The translations under genes were made by a program, and so were the position numbers. This document shows positions 53,821 to 62,079 of a stretch of DNA of 64,000 nt, piece after piece; position 1 is the first letter of the stretch; every line of letters starts with the position of its first letter. Source of the DNA: Mesorhizobium amorphae CCNWGS0123 (GTDB taxonomy: Bacteria > Pseudomonadota > Alphaproteobacteria > Rhizobiales > Rhizobiaceae); the NCBI RefSeq assembly GCF_001686985.1, contig NZ_CP015318.1:556001-620000 (forward strand). Direction: 5' to 3'. The notes beneath the pieces are model-generated. The model did no database searches. It saw only the letters and a list, made by a program, of their open reading frames with translations, and was not told the origin of the DNA.

Positions 53821-53896
<76 letters not shown>

Positions 53897-54155: not shown

Positions 54156-54506
54156 ATGCCTTATTCACAAAGCGATGTGCGTGCTTATCTGGATAGCTAT
54201 GGCGGTCTTTTGGGAACCCGCGTTGAGATGGTTGAGACGGACAGCCAATGCTTTGTGCGGGTAATCGAGGACGAAGAGGAACGCACCTACTCATTCGAGC
54301 CGGGATCCTTCGCCCTGGCCTTCGCTGAACGCCAGCGAGTGCGCCTTAAGCTGCCCGCAATCGAGCGCCCTTTGACACAGCCCAGATTTCGTGGCCCTGG
54401 CCGCGTCAATGCAAAATCCGGCGTATCGGACCAGGCCTCCTCAGGCCACCCGGACAAAGCTCGTCATTCCCGATTTCTGGTGCTCGATGATGTGGCAGTG
54501 CAGTAG
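54156..54506 (+). CDS. Hypothetical protein overlapping the oxidase gene tail
   Basis: ATG 54156 has GGGAG seven bases upstream and gives 116 residues. The first 70 residues (AYLDSYGGLLGTRVEMVETD, then RVIEDEEERTYSFEPGSF) look like a small folded domain with good alternation. The last 22 codons overlap the 3' end of the multicopper oxidase gene on the other strand. I recognise no family. It is either a real small gene that has run past its old stop or a chance frame. Confidence 0.4.
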   Translation: MPYSQSDVRAYLDSYGGLLGTRVEMVETDSQCFVRVIEDEEERTYSFEPGSFALAFAERQRVRLKLPAIERPLTQPRFRGPGRVNAKSGVSDQASSGHPDKARHSRFLVLDDVAVQ

Positions 54507-55835
54507 CCAGTCGCCCTGGTTATCGGCGACGAAGCCGAGCTGAACCTTCTCGTTGGGCTGGATGAGATAGGTGTCGGAGATCGTCGGCTGCACCGGACGC
54601 GTCGAGGACGACAGCACCTTGAAGCTCATGCCGTGCAGATGGATCGGATGCGATTGCGGCGTCAGGTTTTCCATGTCGATGACATAGCTTTTGCCGAGCT
54701 TCAGTTCGGCCAACGGCGCGGTCGGATCGGACGTATCGCCTGGCCACGGCACCTTGTTGATCGCCCAGAAACTGTAGCCGAGCGAGCCGCAGATGCCGTC
54801 GCTCGGCACGTTTTCCGCCGTAGCACTGAGCGACAATGAAATGTGCTCGGCAGCGGCGAGATCGACTTGCTGGACCGGATTGATCTCCAGCGGTGCAAGG
54901 TCGCGAAGGTCGCGTTTGAGAGAAGTTCCAACGGCACGCAGCGTCGCCAGGATTTTGGGCTTGGTGCCCCTGACGTCTCCCAGGCTGACGACTGCCCCTT
55001 CATCGTCGGGCATGCGAATGGCGAGCTCCAGCCGCTGTCCGGGTCCGAGCTGCAAGGCATCGGGCGCAAAGCGCTGCGACACCGGATTGCCGTCAAGCGC
55101 GATCACCGTCGCTTCGGCGCCCTCGACGCGAAAAGCATAGACGCGCGTAACGTCGGTGATGGCGACTCTGAGCCGCACCAACCCTCCGGCCGGCGCGTCA
55201 AATTGCGGCTGGTCGAGCCAGTTGGCGGTGCGCACCGTGCCGTAAGTGCCGGATCTTGCGGCATCGCGCGGCCGGAACTGATCGATGAACTGCCCATCGT
55301 CGCCGAGCCGCCAGTCGCGCAGATTGATGACCACCTCGGCATCGAAATGCGGATCGTTCGGGTTCTCCACGACGATCACGCCGGTCAGTCCGTGGCCCAT
55401 CTGCTCAAGCGTGTTGCAGTGCGGATGATACCAGAAGGTGCCGGCATCGGGCGGCGCGAAGGCGTAGTCGAAATGATCGCCGGTATAGACATAGGGCTGC
55501 ACCAGGAACGGCACGCCGTCCATCTTGTTGGGAACGCGAATGCCGTGCCAGTGGATCGTTGTCGGATCGTCGATGCCATTGACCAGCCGGGCGGCGAAGG
55601 GCTCGCCCTTCTTCATCCTGAGCACCGGCGGCATGCCGGCGTCGCCATAGGTCAACACATTTTTGGTCTGGCCGACATCCATCAGCTTCGCCTGGATCCG
55701 GGTCGTCTTCAGCAGCACCGGCTCGGGCATGGCCGCGGCCCAGCTGCCCACTTTGCCCATGGCGGAGAGCCCGATCCCACCTGCGCCGGCAATCGCGGCA
55801 GTTCTCAAGAGTTTGCGACGTGTGAGGACCGTCAT
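54441..55835 (-). CDS. Multicopper oxidase, Tat-exported
   Basis: The ATG at 55833-55835 gives 464 residues. LTRRKLLRTAAIAGAGG is a twin-arginine signal. All four copper-ligand motifs are present: HWHG (type 2/3), WYHPHC, HPIHLHG and HCHIIEHQKSGM with the type 1 Cys and axial Met. The three-cupredoxin length and lack of a Met-rich insert favour a laccase-like or CueO/SufI-related enzyme oxidising metal ions or phenols in the periplasm. No copper regulator is next to it. Confidence 0.92.
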   Translation of the reverse strand: MTVLTRRKLLRTAAIAGAGGIGLSAMGKVGSWAAAMPEPVLLKTTRIQAKLMDVGQTKNVLTYGDAGMPPVLRMKKGEPFAARLVNGIDDPTTIHWHGIRVPNKMDGVPFLVQPYVYTGDHFDYAFAPPDAGTFWYHPHCNTLEQMGHGLTGVIVVENPNDPHFDAEVVINLRDWRLGDDGQFIDQFRPRDAARSGTYGTVRTANWLDQPQFDAPAGGLVRLRVAITDVTRVYAFRVEGAEATVIALDGNPVSQRFAPDALQLGPGQRLELAIRMPDDEGAVVSLGDVRGTKPKILATLRAVGTSLKRDLRDLAPLEINPVQQVDLAAAEHISLSLSATAENVPSDGICGSLGYSFWAINKVPWPGDTSDPTAPLAELKLGKSYVIDMENLTPQSHPIHLHGMSFKVLSSSTRPVQPTISDTYLIQPNEKVQLGFVADNQGDWLLHCHIIEHQKSGMTSFVRVA

Positions 55836-56213
55836 ATTCGCTCCAGCTGAGAGGCCTCGGGGGGCCCGGCACCCACATGGCACAAGCGACGAACCGGCGC
55901 CATCGCGGCGCAGCGGATCGCTGTGATCCCCGATTGACCCAAACTCGGGAAGTCAATCAAGTCACATTCGCCTGACCGAAAGAGCCGCTCTTGGATACCG
56001 GCTCGTCGTCCAGAGGTTGAGCCTGCGGCAACGAGATGCCCGTTGCCGGCACCCGTCAGTGGCAATCGCGGCGGAGCCTCGCCGACCCTTCGCGTCGAGT
56101 TCGGGATTTCCCAGTCGCTAATCGCGCAGGCTGAAAACGAAAGGCGCCGTGCGGGTGACGCGCGCGCCGAGCTTGACGTTTGGCAAACAGATGTCGCATG
56201 CGGGCGATCTCGA
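55836..56213. other. Gene-free gap with a TonB-tail-like remnant
   Basis: No full gene is seen between the oxidase and rtcR. On the minus strand, 56118-56200 reads GARVTRTAPFVFSLRD and then a stop. This resembles the last residues of the TonB-type protein at 62166 (VRLPLAFSLRN). It may be the end of a decayed gene, or chance. The rest is spacer carrying the oxidase promoter. Confidence 0.4.
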
Positions 56214-57809
56214 TCATCTTTGGACAACGTCCTCGAAGCTGAGGTCGAAACGCAGGAGATATTTGCGCAGCCGGTCGGCGTCGTTGCCACTGGTTTTCTG
56301 CAACCGCGAAACCGCGAATAGTCTTCGCCCGGCCGCGCTGATGGAATTGCTGTCACGGCAAACCTCGAGCACGGCAGCGAGCTGCGCCCGGTCGAACATA
56401 TCGATCTGGCCTTGGCGGTCGGCGCCAAGAATTTCCTGTAGAATGCCGCCCCGGTCGCCAGTATCGCCGGCACGCCATAGCGCCGTCAGCCGGTCGATCT
56501 CGTCGCTTACGGTCTCCTCATTGATGCGGCCCAACGGTGCCAGCGTCGCCATGCGGGTCACCGAAGCCGAGAGATCGCGGAAATTGGCTCGCCACATCGC
56601 CTCCGGCGCGATGGCAAATTTCAAATAGAGGTCGCGCGCTTCCTTGTTGAAGGTGACGTTCTGCCCTTCGCGTTCGCCGAAGCGGCGCAGCTCGAAGTCC
56701 AGGTTCGGCTCTATGTCTTCCTTGCGGTCGCGCAGCGCCGGAAGCTGGAAGGTCCACAGATTCAGCCGCGCAAAAAGATCCTCGCGGAACTTACCCTCCT
56801 TCACGCCGATAGACAGATCGCGATTGGTGCCGGCGAGAAGCTGGAAATCCGACATCACGTCCTGATCGGCGCCGACCGGTAGGAAGCGCTTTTCCTCGAT
56901 GGCGCGCAGGCACATGGCCTGCTCGTCCGGGCCGAGCTCGCCGATCTCGTCGAGAAACAGCACACCCTTGTTGGCCGATTTCATCAACCCGGCGCGCTCG
57001 TTCTGGGCGCCGGTGAAAGCACCCTTGACGTGGCCGAATAGCGTCGACATCGCCTGATCGCCGCGCAGCGTCGCGCAATTGACCTCGATGAAAGCGCCGG
57101 AAACCTGCCGCTGCGCCTTCTTGAGTTCGTAGATACGCCTGGCCAACTGCGACTTGCCAGCACCCGTCGGGCCGGTCAGCAAAACCGGCGCGCGCGAACG
57201 GATCGTCACCTTCTCGATCTGATCGATCATCTGGTTGAAGGCCGGATTGCGGGTGGCGATGCCCGATTTCAGGAACGACGTCGCCTCGTCGCGCTCGGCG
57301 GCAAAGCGCGTGGCGATGGCATCGTAGCGGGACAGATCAAGATCGATGATCGAATGGCTGCCCGATGCGTCGTCACGTCCCTCTTTGCGCGGCGAAAGCT
57401 GCAACAGCCGCGCCGGTATGAAGCGCGCCTCGGTGAGCAGGAACCAGCAGATCTGGGCGACATGGGTGCCGGTGGTGATGTTGACGAGATAATCTTCCCT
57501 CTCGGGATCGAATGTGTAGGCGCGGGCGAAGTCCCGCAGCCCCGTGTAGACCTCGCTGAAATCCCAGGGGTCCTTCATGCCGATGATGTGCGACCTGACC
57601 TCGGTGGCCGGCGAAACCTGTTCTATGTCGGCAATGATCTGCCTGACCAGCCGCTGCGATTGAACGTCATGGATGAGTTCCAGCCGATCGATGAACAATC
57701 CCGGCTGCTGACACAGCGCAACCGTCGGCCGCCACTTCTTCCAACGGTCGTCCCCCCGGCCCGCATCGAGCGTCGTTCCGAGGATACCAATCGCAACGCG
57801 TCTTTTCAT
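56214..57809 (-). CDS. rtcR: RtcR: CARF-domain sigma-54 activator of the RNA repair operon
   Basis: The 531-residue protein has an N-terminal CARF-type sensor domain (about 1-180; KRRVAIGILGTTLDAG and YLVNITTGTHVAQICWFLLTEARFIP), which in known RtcR senses RNA ends or fragments. The AAA+ domain follows, with Walker A GPTGAGKS at 213-220, the sigma-54-contacting GAFTGA at 263-268 and Walker B VLFLDE at 283-288. The C-terminal part should bind DNA. It is divergent from rsr and should activate the sigma-54 promoter at 57969. All key motifs are intact. Confidence 0.95.
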   Translation of the reverse strand: MKRRVAIGILGTTLDAGRGDDRWKKWRPTVALCQQPGLFIDRLELIHDVQSQRLVRQIIADIEQVSPATEVRSHIIGMKDPWDFSEVYTGLRDFARAYTFDPEREDYLVNITTGTHVAQICWFLLTEARFIPARLLQLSPRKEGRDDASGSHSIIDLDLSRYDAIATRFAAERDEATSFLKSGIATRNPAFNQMIDQIEKVTIRSRAPVLLTGPTGAGKSQLARRIYELKKAQRQVSGAFIEVNCATLRGDQAMSTLFGHVKGAFTGAQNERAGLMKSANKGVLFLDEIGELGPDEQAMCLRAIEEKRFLPVGADQDVMSDFQLLAGTNRDLSIGVKEGKFREDLFARLNLWTFQLPALRDRKEDIEPNLDFELRRFGEREGQNVTFNKEARDLYLKFAIAPEAMWRANFRDLSASVTRMATLAPLGRINEETVSDEIDRLTALWRAGDTGDRGGILQEILGADRQGQIDMFDRAQLAAVLEVCRDSNSISAAGRRLFAVSRLQKTSGNDADRLRKYLLRFDLSFEDVVQR

Positions 57810-57968: not shown

Positions 57969-57984
57969 TGGCACGCCGCCTGCA
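57969..57984 (+). promoter_or_regulatory. Sigma-54 promoter of the rsr-Y RNA-rtcB operon
   Basis: TGGCACGCCGCCTGCA has the invariant GG and GC at the -24/-12 spacing (57970-57971 and 57982-57983) and fits TGGCACG-N4-TTGCW with one mismatch. It lies 34 bases before the rsr start and is divergent from rtcR, the expected activator. Confidence 0.92.
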
Positions 57985-58017
57985 ATAATGCTGGTGTGAA
58001 AATGAAGGATGAGAACA

Positions 58018-59577
58018 ATGGCGAACAAATCCGTGTTTGCGACGATTGCAGGAAAGCTGCTCCCGCCGGCTGACGCCAGGAACCGTGAAGGCGCCCAGGC
58101 TTATCGCCTGTCGCCCCATCAAGCCTTGGCGCAGCTGGCGGCGACGGGCACGTTCAACGCGACTTTCTATGCCGAGCCGCGCGAGCAGCTGGACGACGTG
58201 TTGAAGCTCGCCTGGCAGGTCGAGCCGGGATTCCTGGCGCGCACGGCCGTCCACGCTTTCGAGCAGGGCTACATGAAGGACATGCCGGCATTGCTGCTGG
58301 CCGTTCTCTCCTCAATGCAGGACGACGAGTTCGACCGTGCTTTCGGGCGCATCGTCAGGAACGGCAAGATGCTGCGCAACTTCGTACAGGTCATGCGTTC
58401 GGGCGCCACCGGGCGCAAGTCGCTCGGCACGCGGCCGAAGCGGCTTGTCCAGGCCTGGCTCGAGCAGGCGGCCGATTTCGAGATCATGCGGGCTGCGGTC
58501 GGCAATGATCCGTCGCTGGCCGATGTCATCAAGATGGTTCACCCGAAGCCGAAATCGGCATCGCGTGAGGCGCTTTATGGTTACCTGATCGGCAAGCCGC
58601 ATGACGCTTCGGCACTGCCGGACGTAGTGAAGGCATTCGAGGCGTTCAAGCGCGATCCGTCGCTGCCCGTGCCGGAAGTGCCGTTCCAGATGCTGACCTC
58701 GATGCCGCTGTCGCGCGAGCATTGGGTGCAGATCGCCGAAACGGCCGGGTGGCAGATGCTGCGGCAGAACCTGAACACTTTTGCCCGCAACGGCGTGTTC
58801 GAAGTGGAAGGGTTCGCGGAGAAGCTGGCGGCGCGTCTGCGTGATCCGGAAGAGATCCGGCGCGCCCGGGTATTCCCGTACCAGCTCATGGTGGCGTTCA
58901 CCATGACTGGTGCGGACGTGCCTGGCGTGGTCAAGGATGCGCTGCAGGATGCGATGGAAATCGCGCTCAGCAACGTGCCCCGGATCAAGGGCAATGTGGT
59001 CGTGTGCCCGGATGTTTCGGGTTCGATGGGTTCGCCAGCGACCGGCTACCGCAAGGGCGCGACGTCGGCCGTGCGTTGCATTGATGTGGCTGCCCTGGTG
59101 GCTGCCGCGATGCTGCGACGCAACCCGACGGCGAGGGTCTTGCCGTTCGAGAACGATGTGGTGGATATCCGCCTCAACGCTCGCGACACGGTGATGACCA
59201 ACGCCGCCAAGCTGGCTGCCATCGGTGGCGGCGGAACCAACTGTTCGGCTCCGCTGGCACGGCTCGTCCGCGAGAAGGCAAAGGTCGACCTGGTGGTGTT
59301 CGTATCGGACAACCAGTCCTGGGTGGATGCGTCGGCGCATGCGCATCAGGGCACGGCGACGATGCAGGAATGGCAGAAGCTCAAGGGATTGAACCCTGGG
59401 GCCAAGCTGGTCTGCATCGACATCCAGCCCTACGCGACGACGCAGGCCAAGCCGCAGGTCGACATCCTGAATGTCGGCGGCTTCTCCGACCGCGTTTTCG
59501 ACGTGGTCGGAACTATGCTGACCTCGAGCGGCGACCCCGACCATTGGGTGCGCACGATCGAGGCGATTGACCTCTAG
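58018..59577 (+). CDS. rsr: Rsr, bacterial Ro60 (TROVE-domain) RNA-binding protein
   Basis: ATG 58018 follows AAGGATGAGA and gives 519 residues; an ATG at 58009 is less well placed. The N-terminal TROVE domain (HEAT-like ring, about 20-320) binds Y RNA on its outside and misfolded or single-stranded RNA ends in its hole. The C-terminal von Willebrand A domain has an intact MIDAS motif DVSGSMGS at 332-339. Ro proteins act with Y RNAs and nucleases in RNA quality control. It is the first gene of the operon, directly followed by the Y-like RNA array. Confidence 0.95.
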   Translation: MANKSVFATIAGKLLPPADARNREGAQAYRLSPHQALAQLAATGTFNATFYAEPREQLDDVLKLAWQVEPGFLARTAVHAFEQGYMKDMPALLLAVLSSMQDDEFDRAFGRIVRNGKMLRNFVQVMRSGATGRKSLGTRPKRLVQAWLEQAADFEIMRAAVGNDPSLADVIKMVHPKPKSASREALYGYLIGKPHDASALPDVVKAFEAFKRDPSLPVPEVPFQMLTSMPLSREHWVQIAETAGWQMLRQNLNTFARNGVFEVEGFAEKLAARLRDPEEIRRARVFPYQLMVAFTMTGADVPGVVKDALQDAMEIALSNVPRIKGNVVVCPDVSGSMGSPATGYRKGATSAVRCIDVAALVAAAMLRRNPTARVLPFENDVVDIRLNARDTVMTNAAKLAAIGGGGTNCSAPLARLVREKAKVDLVVFVSDNQSWVDASAHAHQGTATMQEWQKLKGLNPGAKLVCIDIQPYATTQAKPQVDILNVGGFSDRVFDVVGTMLTSSGDPDHWVRTIEAIDL

Positions 59578-59581
59578 ACAA

Positions 59582-59610
59582 TGGTCCCGGCAGTGCGTCT
59601 GCCGGGACCA
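59582..59610 (+). other. Strong hairpin between rsr and the RNA array
   Basis: TGGTCCCGGCAG-TGCGT-CTGCCGGGACCA is a perfect 12-bp stem starting four bases after the rsr stop codon. No U-run follows. It could protect the rsr mRNA end, attenuate, or mark a cleavage point that frees the first Y-like RNA at 59625. Confidence 0.65.
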
Positions 59611-59624
59611 CCGGAACAAATTCA

Positions 59625-59760
59625 GGGCATGACGAATGCCGATGGAACTACAGGCTGTTCACCTCCAGGTCGCGGGTTCGAATCCCGTCGGGTCCGCCAC
59701 TATGGACCCGTAGCTCAGCGGATAGAGCGGGACGTTTCGTCAAACCTTGTCGTCATGCCC
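59625..59760 (+). ncRNA. Y-like RNA 1 with permuted tRNA-like body and encoded CCA
   Basis: The ends form an 11-bp perfect stem (GGGCATGACGA with TCGTCATGCCC). Inside come an inner stem (GATGGAAC with GTTTCGTC, with wobbles), the conserved ACTACAG, T arm GCGGG-TTCGAAT-CCCGT (59672-59688), acceptor 3' strand CGGGTCC, then GCCA CTAT, acceptor 5' strand GGACCCG (59704-59710), UA, and D arm GCTC-AGCGGATA-GAGC (59713-59728). The acceptor pairs perfectly over 7 bp. This is a tRNA permuted so that its break lies at the anticodon, which the Y stem replaces. The GRCGA/UCGYC closing stem is typical of bacterial Y RNAs that bind Rsr. Confidence 0.9.
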
Positions 59761-59811
59761 GACGATTTTTTGCGACTTCGGTCGTACTTGGAAAGGAAAA
59801 GCATTGAAGGC

Positions 59812-59933
59812 GTGACGAATGCCTGTGGAACTACAGCACTTCCAGGTCGCGGGTTCGACCCCCGCCGGAGCAGCAGCTCCGTAGTTCAGCGGACAGTACG
59901 GGAAGATAGGTTTCACAACAGACTTGTCGTCAC
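59812..59933 (+). ncRNA. Y-like RNA 2 with permuted tRNA-like body
   Basis: The closing stem is GTGACGA/TCGTCAC. The body has the ACTACAG block, T arm GCGGG-TTCGACC-CCCGC (59849-59865), acceptor-like hairpin CGGAGC-AGCA-GCTCCG (59866-59881), UA, and a D-arm-like GTTC-AGCGGACA-GTAC with one mismatch. Compared with RNA 1 the acceptor is one pair shorter and the joining loop is four bases. A small UUCG hairpin (59773-59784) lies in the spacer before it. Confidence 0.87.
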
Positions 59934-59948
59934 ATCTCGCAAAAAACA

Positions 59949-60080
59949 GCCGCGGCGAATGCCGGATGGAACTACAGCACCATGAACGGGATGCTCCGTG
60001 AGGTTCGACTCCTCAACCTTGCAGGCGCTCTCTGGCACGAGCGGGACTCCCGGTGTTCCATCATCCCTTGTCGCCGCGGC
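59949..60080 (+). ncRNA. Y-like RNA 3 with permuted tRNA-like body
   Basis: The closing stem GCCGCGGCGA/TCGCCGCGGC is 10 perfect pairs. The body has GGAACTACAG, T arm TGAGG-TTCGACT-CCTCA (59999-60015), only a three-pair acceptor-like hairpin (CCT-TGC-AGG), and a five-pair D arm CGCTC-TCTGGCAC-GAGCG (60026-60043). It keeps the order T, acceptor, D but with the shortest acceptor of the set. The CCCTTGTCG block before the closing strand is shared with RNAs 4 and 7. Confidence 0.85.
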
Positions 60081-60088
60081 AAATCAAA

Positions 60089-60213
60089 TGGCGAATGCTG
60101 GCAGGACTACAGGTAGCGCGCCCGTCGAAAGGCGGGAGGTCGGGTGTTCAAATCACTCTCACGCTCTGCGGAGCGGGGTGGCGCAGTCACCGTCTTGCCA
60201 ACCCTTGTCGCCA
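60089..60213 (+). ncRNA. Y-like RNA 4 with permuted tRNA-like body
   Basis: The closing stem is TGGCGA/TCGCCA and the inner stem TGGCAGGA/TCTTGCCA. After ACTACAGG comes a hairpin CCCGTC-GAAA-GGCGGG with a GNRA loop. Then follow T arm GGGTG-TTCAAAT-CACTC (60142-60158), acceptor-like CGCTC-TGCG-GAGCG (60162-60175) and D arm GGTG-GCGCAGT-CACC (60177-60191). The GGGGTGGCGCAG stretch recalls initiator-type tRNA D arms. Confidence 0.86.
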
Positions 60214-60225
60214 GCCGATTGAACA

Positions 60226-60321
60226 GGGCGAATGCCTGCGGGAATACATCTGCTAGCCAGGTGGTTCGAATCCATCCGTCGATCCTTGGATCGACCGGTT
60301 TCTCGCATCGACTTGTCGCCC
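60226..60321 (+). ncRNA. Y-like RNA 5, shortest copy
   Basis: The closing stem is GGGCGA/TCGCCC. The conserved block is degenerate (GGAATACATC). The T arm GGTGG-TTCGAAT-CCATC (60260-60276) has one wobble. The acceptor-like hairpin GTCGATC-CTTG-GATCGAC (60278-60295) is seven perfect pairs. The D arm is hard to recognise, so this copy may be partly decayed or a minimal form. Confidence 0.78.
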
Positions 60322-60342
60322 GCCAGAGAGAAAGAGAATGAA

Positions 60343-60474
60343 TGGCGAATGCAGGCAGGACTACAGGGATAGAGCGTCCGCGGCGAAAGTCGCGGAAGGT
60401 CGGATGTTCAAGCCATCCCTTCCGTCTCCGGATGGAAAGTAGCTCAGTAATTGTCCTGCCGACTCTTTTCGTCA
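60343..60474 (+). ncRNA. Y-like RNA 6 with permuted tRNA-like body
   Basis: The inner stem GGCAGGAC/GTCCTGCC is perfect. The outer stem TGGCGAA/TTCGTCA has one wobble, and the usual CTTGTCG block is altered to CTTTTCG. After ACTACAGG a GAAA-capped hairpin TCCGCGGC-GAAA-GTCGCGGA precedes T arm GGATG-TTCAAGC-CATCC (60402-60418), then acceptor-like TTCCGTC-TCCG-GATGGAA (60420-60437), UA, and a loose D arm beginning GCTCAGTAA. Confidence 0.82.
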
Positions 60475-60487
60475 GACCGAATGAATA

Positions 60488-60623
60488 GGACGAATGCCTG
60501 TGAGACTACAGGTAGACGCGGCCTGCTTAAGGCAAGCGGGTGCCGAAAGGCGTGAGGGTTCGTGTCCCTCCTTCGCATCTTCGCGAAGTGGCGGAAAAGA
60601 CGTCTCGCATTCCCTTGTCGTCC
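60488..60623 (+). ncRNA. Y-like RNA 7, tRNA-Leu-like body
   Basis: The closing stem is GGACGA/TCGTCC with inner stem TGTGAGAC/GTCTCGCA. The body contains GGTAGACGCGG, a TGCC-GAAA-GGCG hairpin placed like the long variable arm of class II tRNAs, T arm GAGGG-TTCGTGT-CCCTC (60554-60570), acceptor-like CTTCGC-ATCTTC-GCGAAG (60571-60588) and GTGGCGGAAAAGAC, which resembles a tRNA-Leu D arm. It lies 40 bases before rtcB. Confidence 0.85.
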
Positions 60624-60663
60624 GTTCGCAATACGCAGTGCTTCCTACCGAAAGTGAAAGAAC

Positions 60664-62079
60664 ATGACCGAGATTTTGAGTGGACAGGATTTGATCGACG
60701 CCGGCATGCCGCAGGGCAAGTGGTTCGGCAAGGCGCTCGCGGCTGCGAATGCAGTGCTGGAGAGCGGCGGCTCGCCGGGAGACGCGCTGGAAGCGGCGCG
60801 CACTTTCGCGCCGCCACCAGCGCTGAAGCTGCATGCGGCCCATTCCATGCCGCTGCATCTGAACATCGAGGCCGAAACGCCGGACGAGGCCGCCAACGTC
60901 GAAGCGGTTACGCGCAGCATGGCCGAATTGATGCGCACGCCGGTGATCCGTGCCGGCGCCATCATGCCGGATGCCTGCCCGGCCGGTCCGTCGGGCACCA
61001 TTCCGGTTGGCGGCGTCGCGGTGTCCGAAGCGATCCATCCCGGCATGCATTCGGCCGACATCAGCTGCTCGATGGCGATCTCGGTATTTCCAGGCGTGGC
61101 GCCTGCCGCTCTGCTCGATGCCGTGCACGCGGTCACCCATTTCGGGCCGGGCGGACGTCCGCGCGGCCAGCAGATCCGGCCAGCCAAGGAGGTCTTCGAG
61201 CGTTTCGAGGCCAACCCCTTGCTGCGCGACCTGACCAGTGCGGCGATCGAGCATTTCGGCACGCAGGGCGACGGCAACCATTTCGCCTATGTCGGCACGC
61301 TGAAGTCGAGTGGCGAGACGGCGCTGGTCACCCACCATGGCTCGCGCTCGCCAGGCGCGCGGCTCTACAGCAAGGGGATGAAGATCGCCGAGGGCGTCCG
61401 CAAGACGCTGTCGCCGGAGACCTTGCCGCAGAATGCTTGGATTCCAGCCGACACCAGGGAAGGCGATGAGTACTGGGATGCCCTGCAGACGATCCGCGAA
61501 TGGACCAAGGGCAACCATATGCTCATCCACGACCTGACGGCCGAAAAGCTGGCGGCGAAGTTGTCGGACCGGTTCTGGAACGAGCACAACTTCGTCTTCC
61601 GCCGCTCAGACGGGCTGTTCTACCACGGCAAGGGCGCCACGCCGGCCTTCGACAACTGGGCCGATGATGCGACCGATCTGACGCTGATCCCGCTCAACAT
61701 GGCGGAACCGGTGCTGATCGTGCGCGGCAAGAACGCGGCGCACGGACTTGGCTTCTCGCCGCACGGCGCCGGGCGCAACTTCTCGCGCACCCAGCACCGA
61801 CGTATGCAGGCGGGGCGCAGCGACGTCGATATCTTCGCGGAAGAGACGAAGGGCATCGATGCCCGCTTCTTCTCGGGCGTGACGGATATCTCTGAGTTGC
61901 CGAGCGCCTACAAGAACGCTGCGTCGATGCGCCGCCAGATCGAGCATTTCGGCCTGGCGGAGATCGTCGACGAGGTGGTGCCCTATGGCTGCATCATGGC
62001 CGGCGATTGGGAAGTCAATGCGCCGTGGCGCAAGAAGAAGGAAATGCGCGCACAGCAGAGGCAGCAGAGCGAGTCCTGA
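60664..62079 (+). CDS. rtcB: RtcB-family RNA ligase
   Basis: The 471-residue protein keeps the RtcB catalytic set: Asp132 and Cys135 in HSADISCSM (usual DVGCGM), His206 in GDGNHF, His224 in HHGSRS, His321 in HGKGATPAF, and the guanylated His367 in SPHGAGR. These bind Mn and carry GMP when joining 2',3'-cyclic-phosphate ends to 5'-OH ends. The motif around the cysteine and the HHGSRSPGARLYSKG loop differ from the E. coli type, so this may be a subfamily. It is the last gene of the sigma-54 operon; no rtcA follows. Confidence 0.93.
   Translation: MTEILSGQDLIDAGMPQGKWFGKALAAANAVLESGGSPGDALEAARTFAPPPALKLHAAHSMPLHLNIEAETPDEAANVEAVTRSMAELMRTPVIRAGAIMPDACPAGPSGTIPVGGVAVSEAIHPGMHSADISCSMAISVFPGVAPAALLDAVHAVTHFGPGGRPRGQQIRPAKEVFERFEANPLLRDLTSAAIEHFGTQGDGNHFAYVGTLKSSGETALVTHHGSRSPGARLYSKGMKIAEGVRKTLSPETLPQNAWIPADTREGDEYWDALQTIREWTKGNHMLIHDLTAEKLAAKLSDRFWNEHNFVFRRSDGLFYHGKGATPAFDNWADDATDLTLIPLNMAEPVLIVRGKNAAHGLGFSPHGAGRNFSRTQHRRMQAGRSDVDIFAEETKGIDARFFSGVTDISELPSAYKNAASMRRQIEHFGLAEIVDEVVPYGCIMAGDWEVNAPWRKKKEMRAQQRQQSES

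Follow-up and report, generated by a model that had tools for sequence, protein, structure and literature searches.

Seven predicted Y RNA-like tRNA mimics of at least four designs between rsr and rtcB in Mesorhizobium amorphae

The closest described relatives of the RNAs predicted here are YrlA and YrlB of Salmonella (Rfam RF02553; structure 6CU1). YrlA is placed between rsr and rtcB behind a sigma-54 promoter, and Salmonella Rsr and YrlA bind PNPase (PMC9879122). YrlA has been described as modified by DusA and TruB (PMC8394870), and its tRNA-like part as superposing on tRNA with a circular permutation (PMC11472068). According to a further report, tRNA fragments with a 2′,3′-cyclic phosphate activate RtcR in Salmonella, and YrlA is uncut by an anticodon nuclease, for which it was proposed as a competitive inhibitor, with tRNA decay as a further possibility; it also describes the Rsr-PNPase complex of Deinococcus, in which a Y RNA tethers Rsr to the enzyme (PMC7790460). 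Permuted tRNA mimicry of the YrlA type, the operon, and the occurrence of two units per operon are already published.

We analysed a window of 64,000 nucleotides from M. amorphae CCNWGS0123 (contig NZ_CP015318.1, positions 556,001 to 620,000), in which the interval between rsr and rtcB is filled by seven Y RNA-like units, U1 to U7, at 59629-60624, downstream of a sigma-54-type element (Table 1). The units resemble YrlA and YrlB in their Y stem, their permuted tRNA-like part and their position between rsr and rtcB, and the array adjoins rsr, as expected of YrlA; there are, however, seven units here and two in Salmonella. The Y RNA of Deinococcus radiodurans in the Rsr-PNPase complex is comparable by description, an Rsr relative being present here as well, but the tRNA-like parts of the array come in several designs. 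In the permuted tRNA genes of algae and archaea, as in the array units, the tRNA 3′ half comes before the 5′ half. Those genes yield working tRNAs; most array units, in contrast, have lost or replaced the anticodon loop, and their acceptor ends are joined in a hairpin. The tRNA-like domain of tmRNA is also a partial tRNA mimic without an anticodon, but the tmRNA acceptor end is free and charged, whereas that of the array is a closed hairpin.

Table 1. Features of the rsr-rtcB locus, in window positions
Feature	Position	Strand	Evidence
rtcR, sigma-54 activator with RtcR sensor domain, divergent	56214..57809	-	Pfam RtcR 274.7 bits and Sigma54_activat
Sigma-54-type -24/-12 element TGGCACGCCGCCTGCA, upstream of rsr	57969..57984	+	Motif match
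rsr (Ro60 relative)	58009..59577	+	Pfam vWA_Ro60 65.8 bits, above cut-off; TROVE 20.7 bits, just below cut-off of 23
Hairpin, 12 pairs, no U-run, between rsr stop and U1	59582..59610	+	
U1, predicted Y RNA; T-acceptor-D order on anticodon-type stem, tRNA-Arg-like, internal GCCA	59629..59756	+	RF02553 72.4 bits
U2, predicted Y RNA; T-acceptor-D order	59812..59933	+	RF02553 63 bits, below cut-off
U3, predicted Y RNA; T and D arms, without acceptor arm	59952..60077	+	Ortholog comparison
U4, predicted D-mounted Y RNA	60088..60214	+	Model R1 123.4 bits, training member; RF02553 31.2 bits
U4, D arm 3′ strand	60116-60119		
U4, anticodon-position hairpin with GAAA loop	60121-60136		
U4, T arm	60142-60158		
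U4, acceptor hairpin	60159-60178		
U4, D arm 5′ strand	60181-60184		
U5, shortest predicted Y RNA; T arm and acceptor hairpin only	60225..60322	+	RF02553 38.9 bits
U6, predicted D-mounted Y RNA; anticodon-position hairpin with GAAA loop	60342..60475	+	Model R1 120.0 bits, training member; RF02553 29.6 bits
U7, predicted D-mounted, tRNA-Leu-like Y RNA	60487..60624	+	Model R1 66.6 bits, not training member; RF02553 26.2 bits
U7, anticodon-position hairpin	60521-60537		
U7, long variable arm	60540-60553		
rtcB, RNA ligase	60664..62079	+	Pfam RtcB 116.5 bits

The locus has the divergent rtcR, the promoter element and the rtcB of the described RNA repair operon (rsr-Y RNA-rtcBA with RtcR). A search of the genome gave one match to RtcB and none to rtcA, and the locus is therefore not the full Salmonella operon. 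The ATG at 58018 may be an alternative start of rsr. Among solved structures the best match for the Rsr of the window was Deinococcus Rsr (2nvo); its nearest named relatives, with 92% identity, are from Mesorhizobium. An rsr gene is rare among kin, being found in 8 of the 151 genomes searched in the family, this one included. The first-pass annotation had placed the array inside a sigma-54 operon, and a sigma-54-type element does lie upstream of rsr. Of 79 related loci (L055 being left out of the count), 31 carry the motif upstream of rsr at a distance of at most 250 nt, against an overall density of about 0.012 per 250 nt; as written, it was absent from the other 48.

Several further observations concern the neighbourhood. 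A multicopper oxidase gene lies upstream of rtcR at 54441-55883, and the only tRNA found in the window by ARAGORN is a tRNA-Ala(cgc) at 53821-53896. The RtcB encoded beside this type of rsr is in many cases only distantly related to that in the window, with 25-30% identity (L032, L033, L049, L051, L055, L060 and most loci outside Rhizobiales), so that two kinds of RtcB share one type of neighbour. At the locus titled Mycobacterium sp. KBS0706 (L033), rsr and the Y RNA array closely resemble those of Inquilinus limosus (L032), which could reflect either a wrong title or movement of the locus. A hairpin similar to that between the rsr stop and U1 follows rsr in the relatives compared, with its letters altered and its pairing retained, and could separate the rsr message from the array. 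A terminator-like hairpin with a T-run at 59749-59771 takes up the 3′ strand of the U1 closing stem, and its formation would thus be incompatible with folding of U1. L019-L026 have similar letters downstream of U1, and terminator matches across the region were not above those in shuffles.

Seven tandem Y-like units had been proposed between rsr and rtcB, and this was borne out, the units measuring 98-138 nt, closing stems included, and being separated by 10-55 nt. All seven form a Y stem in two parts, whose 5′ strand carries GAAUG and whose 3′ strand carries UUGUCG (UUUUCG in U6); the closing stem of U6, described earlier as degenerate, is intact and uses a G-U pair. The ACTACAG block said to be shared is present in the other units but reads AATACAT in U5. 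The Rfam model RF02553 reported six of the seven units at E≤1 (Table 1), but only U1 passed the gathering cut-off of 69 bits, and U3 was not reported at E≤1. These matches, together with the covariation described below, uphold the view that the units are Y RNA-like with tRNA-like modules. A stem caller, which misses some units, found 237 units in 58,385 bases of rsr-rtcB intervals. The opposite strand gave 2, shuffled sets gave 3.65 on average, and upstream and coding sequence, 223,391 bases in all, gave 13.

The units had been taken for seven diverged copies of one YrlA design. Instead the array consists of at least four designs, one of them with another circular permutation, and most of these predicted RNAs are without an anticodon loop. 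A T arm is present in all seven units, as had been annotated. In U1 and U2 a T hairpin is followed by an acceptor and then a D hairpin, as in the Rfam YrlA model; the D hairpin of U2 has mismatches in the window. These two units alone have this order, which they share with YrlA and YrlB of Salmonella, and U3 to U7 are accordingly filed as YrlA-like rather than as members of RF02553. In U3 the T and D stems are separated by only 10-11 nt in all of 12 orthologs, which leaves no acceptor arm, so that the acceptor-like hairpin attributed to every unit is missing here. U5 has a T arm and an acceptor hairpin but no D arm; its best hairpin after the T arm varies widely in sequence, and in 4 of 14 orthologs it contains one or two mismatches. 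(The 12 orthologs of U3, the 14 of U5 and the 14 Leu-like units below were chosen by hand.) In U4, U6 and U7 the inner Y stem is followed by ACTACA, the 3′ part of the D arm, a hairpin in the anticodon position, the variable region, the T arm and an acceptor hairpin, and the tRNA-like part ends in the 5′ portion of the D arm. Thus in these three units the Y stem enters through an opened D loop, a different circular permutation from that of YrlA. The D-arm-like hairpin reported for most units therefore exists in U1, U2 and U3, is absent from U5, and in U4, U6 and U7 is a split D arm carrying the Y stem. A limited literature search, whose scope stopped short of the central papers of 2014 and 2018, found no D-mounted, acceptor-less or D-less Y RNA and no array of this size.

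A covariance model, R1, was built from 30 D-mounted units, the Leu-like ones being left out. Among the loci listed it gave 343 matches at E≤0.01 over 81 sources, and 60 matches in 47 of the 81 scored at least 71 bits, a line of our own choosing (the next matches had 68.5, 67.8 and 66.6 bits); half of these 60 had not been used in building the model. We take the sources above this line to belong to Rhizobiales, other Alphaproteobacteria, Burkholderiales and two verrucomicrobial bins (L066, L069). Under strict filters, with few candidates scored in each of 289 genomes of the class, at least 71 bits were reached only in this genome and one other. In the fitted alignment of the 60 units, which is biased towards its own structure, 92.0% of cells pair, and 35 of the 38 pairs changed on both sides; double-change cells numbered 448 against 126 in shuffles, and the signal was lost when partners were slid. 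In a plain MAFFT alignment of the 30 units used to build R1, where four stems aligned without structure, there were 70 double changes against 16 in shuffles. The earlier proposal that the stems are kept by compensatory changes was supported for the D-mounted class. Pairing was poor in two places: in the anticodon-position stem, where two inner pairs form in only 55.2% of cells, and in the inner Y stem, where one pair is broken in 56 of the 60 units.

The letters of the tRNA core, in standard tRNA numbering, were largely kept in the 60 units: T8 in 59, A14 in 60, G15 in 57, GG (18, 19) in 59, A21 in 59, C48 in 54, T54 in 57, T55 in 54, C56 in 58 and A58 in 55. This holds even with the D loop interrupted by the Y stem between positions 15 and 18. 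Folded alone, the anticodon-position hairpin has a 4-nt loop in 44 of the 60 units and a 7-nt loop in only 2; the corresponding loop of U7 in the window is not a tetraloop.

Unit interiors were doubled to undo the circular permutation and compared with tRNAs. ARAGORN, run on the 284 of 315 interiors that were at least 50 nt long, called a tRNA in 40, including U1 and U7 of the window; it called none in 20 shuffled sets and none in the 315 linear units. Of the 315 units called, 279 remained after limits on score and position, and 258 were aligned with the 47 tRNAs of the genome of the window, 21 with interiors below 40 or above 135 nt being left out. The z score was at least 4 in 161 of the 258. 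Of these 161 alignments, 150 spanned the junction; 41 placed it at tRNA position 12-20, 98 at position 24-38 and 11 elsewhere. The first group corresponds to mounting by the D arm and the second to mounting by the anticodon arm, and both mounts occurred in one locus at 27 of the loci listed.

U1 scored 39.0 against tRNA-Arg(ccg), with a shuffle maximum of 17.0, and the next two tRNAs were also Arg. U7 scored 34.5 against tRNA-Leu(tag), with which it shares a long variable arm; the shuffle maximum was 17.5, and the first four tRNAs were all Leu. The margin over the next isotype was 19.5 for U7 and 6.0 for U1. U4 (23.5, shuffle maximum 18.5) was tRNA-like, with Met, Pro or Thr as candidate isotypes, and U2, U3, U5 and U6 lay at most 2.5 from the shuffle maximum. 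Since the best scores of U2 to U6 were close together or near the shuffle maximum, isotype names for them were dropped, and only U1 (Arg) and U7 (Leu) were named. A leave-one-out control gave the correct isotype for 32 of the 47 real tRNAs, so that the method is only fair. The 14 Leu-type units keep the D-arm letters TGGCGGAA and GG.A.ACGC unchanged. The suggestion that U7 displays a Leu UAA anticodon was abandoned because the anticodon tip varies in sequence and length over the 14 loci.

The ARAGORN calls for circularised U1 and U7, and the internal GCCA retained in U1, are what would be expected if the units were tRNA genes in permuted order yielding charged tRNAs. We reject this explanation as having hardly any chance of being correct: 58 of the 60 D-mounted units are without a 7-nt anticodon loop, U3 has no acceptor and U5 no D arm, a dispersed repeat occupies the anticodon tip of U7 in one relative, and the genome has an ordinary set of tRNAs.

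The same loss of the anticodon loop bears on the main rival to the reading we prefer, namely that the units are decoys, uncleavable RNAs that would occupy tRNA-cleaving toxins or nucleases while RtcB mends cut tRNAs, with the different designs answering different attackers. The loss agrees with such a role, as do the resemblance of U1 and U7 to different tRNAs and, as published for Salmonella, the response of RtcR to cut tRNAs and the proposal that the uncut YrlA is a competitive inhibitor (PMC7790460). Anticodon nucleases would, however, have to bind a body without the loop, and U3 and U5 are without whole arms. We regard decoys as unlikely, though well worth weighing.

The identity of the window to six relatives was 95.7, 81.0, 92.9, 94.0, 85.6, 86.9 and 91.0% for U1 to U7 respectively (U7 being missing in two of the six). 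The spacers gave 75.2% and the third codon positions of rsr 73-82%. All units but U2 exceed the spacers by at least 10 points, and U2 is thus weakly kept. At eight close loci (L019-L026) the order of units is as in the window, and each unit is nearest to its positional ortholog. All seven units are present in L020, L021 and L023; a U1-like unit comes second in L022 and L025, and U7 is absent from L019, L024 and L026. In L027, L029, L030 and L096 the best assignment places U6 before U5, so the order is not fixed outside close relatives.

The units could also be interchangeable ligands of Rsr, multiplied to stabilise or saturate it, with tRNA parts that vary without separate roles. The Y stem is indeed the most uniform part, and unit number varies among loci; but the units are nearest to positional orthologs and not to neighbours, for which reason redundant copies of one RNA were set aside, the tRNA-like stems covary, and six of the seven units are kept well above the spacers. 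A pure dosage effect therefore seems to us rather improbable.

Arrays proved to be common beside this type of rsr. The survey sample comprised 80 named rsr loci, out of 563 confirmed; L011-L014, that is the locus itself and three contigs recurring as L027, L044 and L036, were left out. An rtcB was found in 64 of 85 sources, the window included, and among the loci so listed the stem caller found at least two units in 60 of 64, at least four in 36 and seven in two. Model R1 likewise gave seven units in Rhizobium sp. AC27/96 (L037), among the loci listed. The first-pass annotation had held that one or two copies are usual and seven unusual; for this rsr lineage the first does not hold, and seven is the upper end of the range rather than an oddity of one genome.

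Neither model was suited to wider surveys. The Rfam YrlA model was dropped because it misses most units. Used at low scores, R1 has matches at E≤1e-4 in 113 of the 289 class genomes, almost always below 57 bits, and one such match that was checked is a tandem tRNA. Scanning the genome of the window with RF02553 at E≤10 gave 13 matches, of which six belong to the array. Of the seven others, five overlap tRNA genes and two are weak (E 3.97 and 7.05), and the idea of further Y RNAs outside the array was set aside. R1 gave five matches in this genome, four in the array and one on a tandem tRNA pair (L004). At L004 (1480-1625) the junction of the tandem tRNA genes matches the YrlA model and resembles a Y RNA interior, with a T arm, CCA, a short gap and a D arm, which suggests a possible route to permuted tRNA mimics.

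The ends used for charging and decoding appear to tolerate inserts. The acceptor tip of U1 carries inserts in L019, L025 and L026, giving interiors of 175, 193 and 138 nt compared with 85 in the window; a repeat was looked for in these inserts and none was found. In L023 a palindromic repeat lies inside the anticodon tip of U7. Its core, GGAAAASYGNNNARCGGTTTTCC, has 40 copies in the genome of the window, none of them within the window, and 50 in the genome of L023. Inserts at both tips suggest that the body and elbow are used rather than the charging and decoding ends. Those ends are closed, replaced or filled by inserts, whereas the body persists, and it is therefore the likely surface of contact.

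We favour, tentatively and with slightly more doubt than belief, the reading that the seven units are separate tRNA mimics held by Rsr, which would give the RtcR-switched RNA repair system varied tRNA bodies and would probably recruit tRNA-binding enzymes such as PNPase. The array would be transcribed as a single operon from the sigma-54-type promoter, and the transcript would be cut into single RNAs. Each would be bound by Rsr through its Y stem, as published for YrlA elsewhere, and enzymes would be recruited through the T arm and elbow, the sole tRNA part common to all seven. As adaptors on Rsr, the units may thus show different tRNA faces to different tRNA-binding enzymes during RNA damage, different designs having different partners. 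In favour of this adaptor reading we count the covariation of the D-mounted class, the kept core letters, the junction positions, the position-wise conservation and the inserts at the tips. Against it we count the weak conservation of U2, the poorly pairing inner pairs, the 48 loci without the sigma-54 motif, the lack of an rtcA match and the U7 loop of the window.

A more far-reaching proposal, which we consider quite unlikely, is that the arrays are panels of tRNA bodies captured from host tRNAs (Arg in U1, Leu in U7), stripped of the anticodon and free ends and mounted on Rsr by whichever arm frees the wanted face. They would form an RNA-based defence switched on by cut tRNAs, occupying several different attackers or processors of tRNA simultaneously and coupled to repair by RtcB.

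Surveys with the present Rfam model miss most RNAs of this kind. In the array, one Ro60-type handle carries the tRNA fold in two topologies, side by side in an operon-like interval, with the tRNA core kept and the parts for translation dropped. The locus is a natural series of variants, comprising a body without an acceptor, a body without a D arm, a full body, an Arg-like and a Leu-like unit, and the question of what bacterial Y RNAs mimic tRNA for thereby becomes directly testable.
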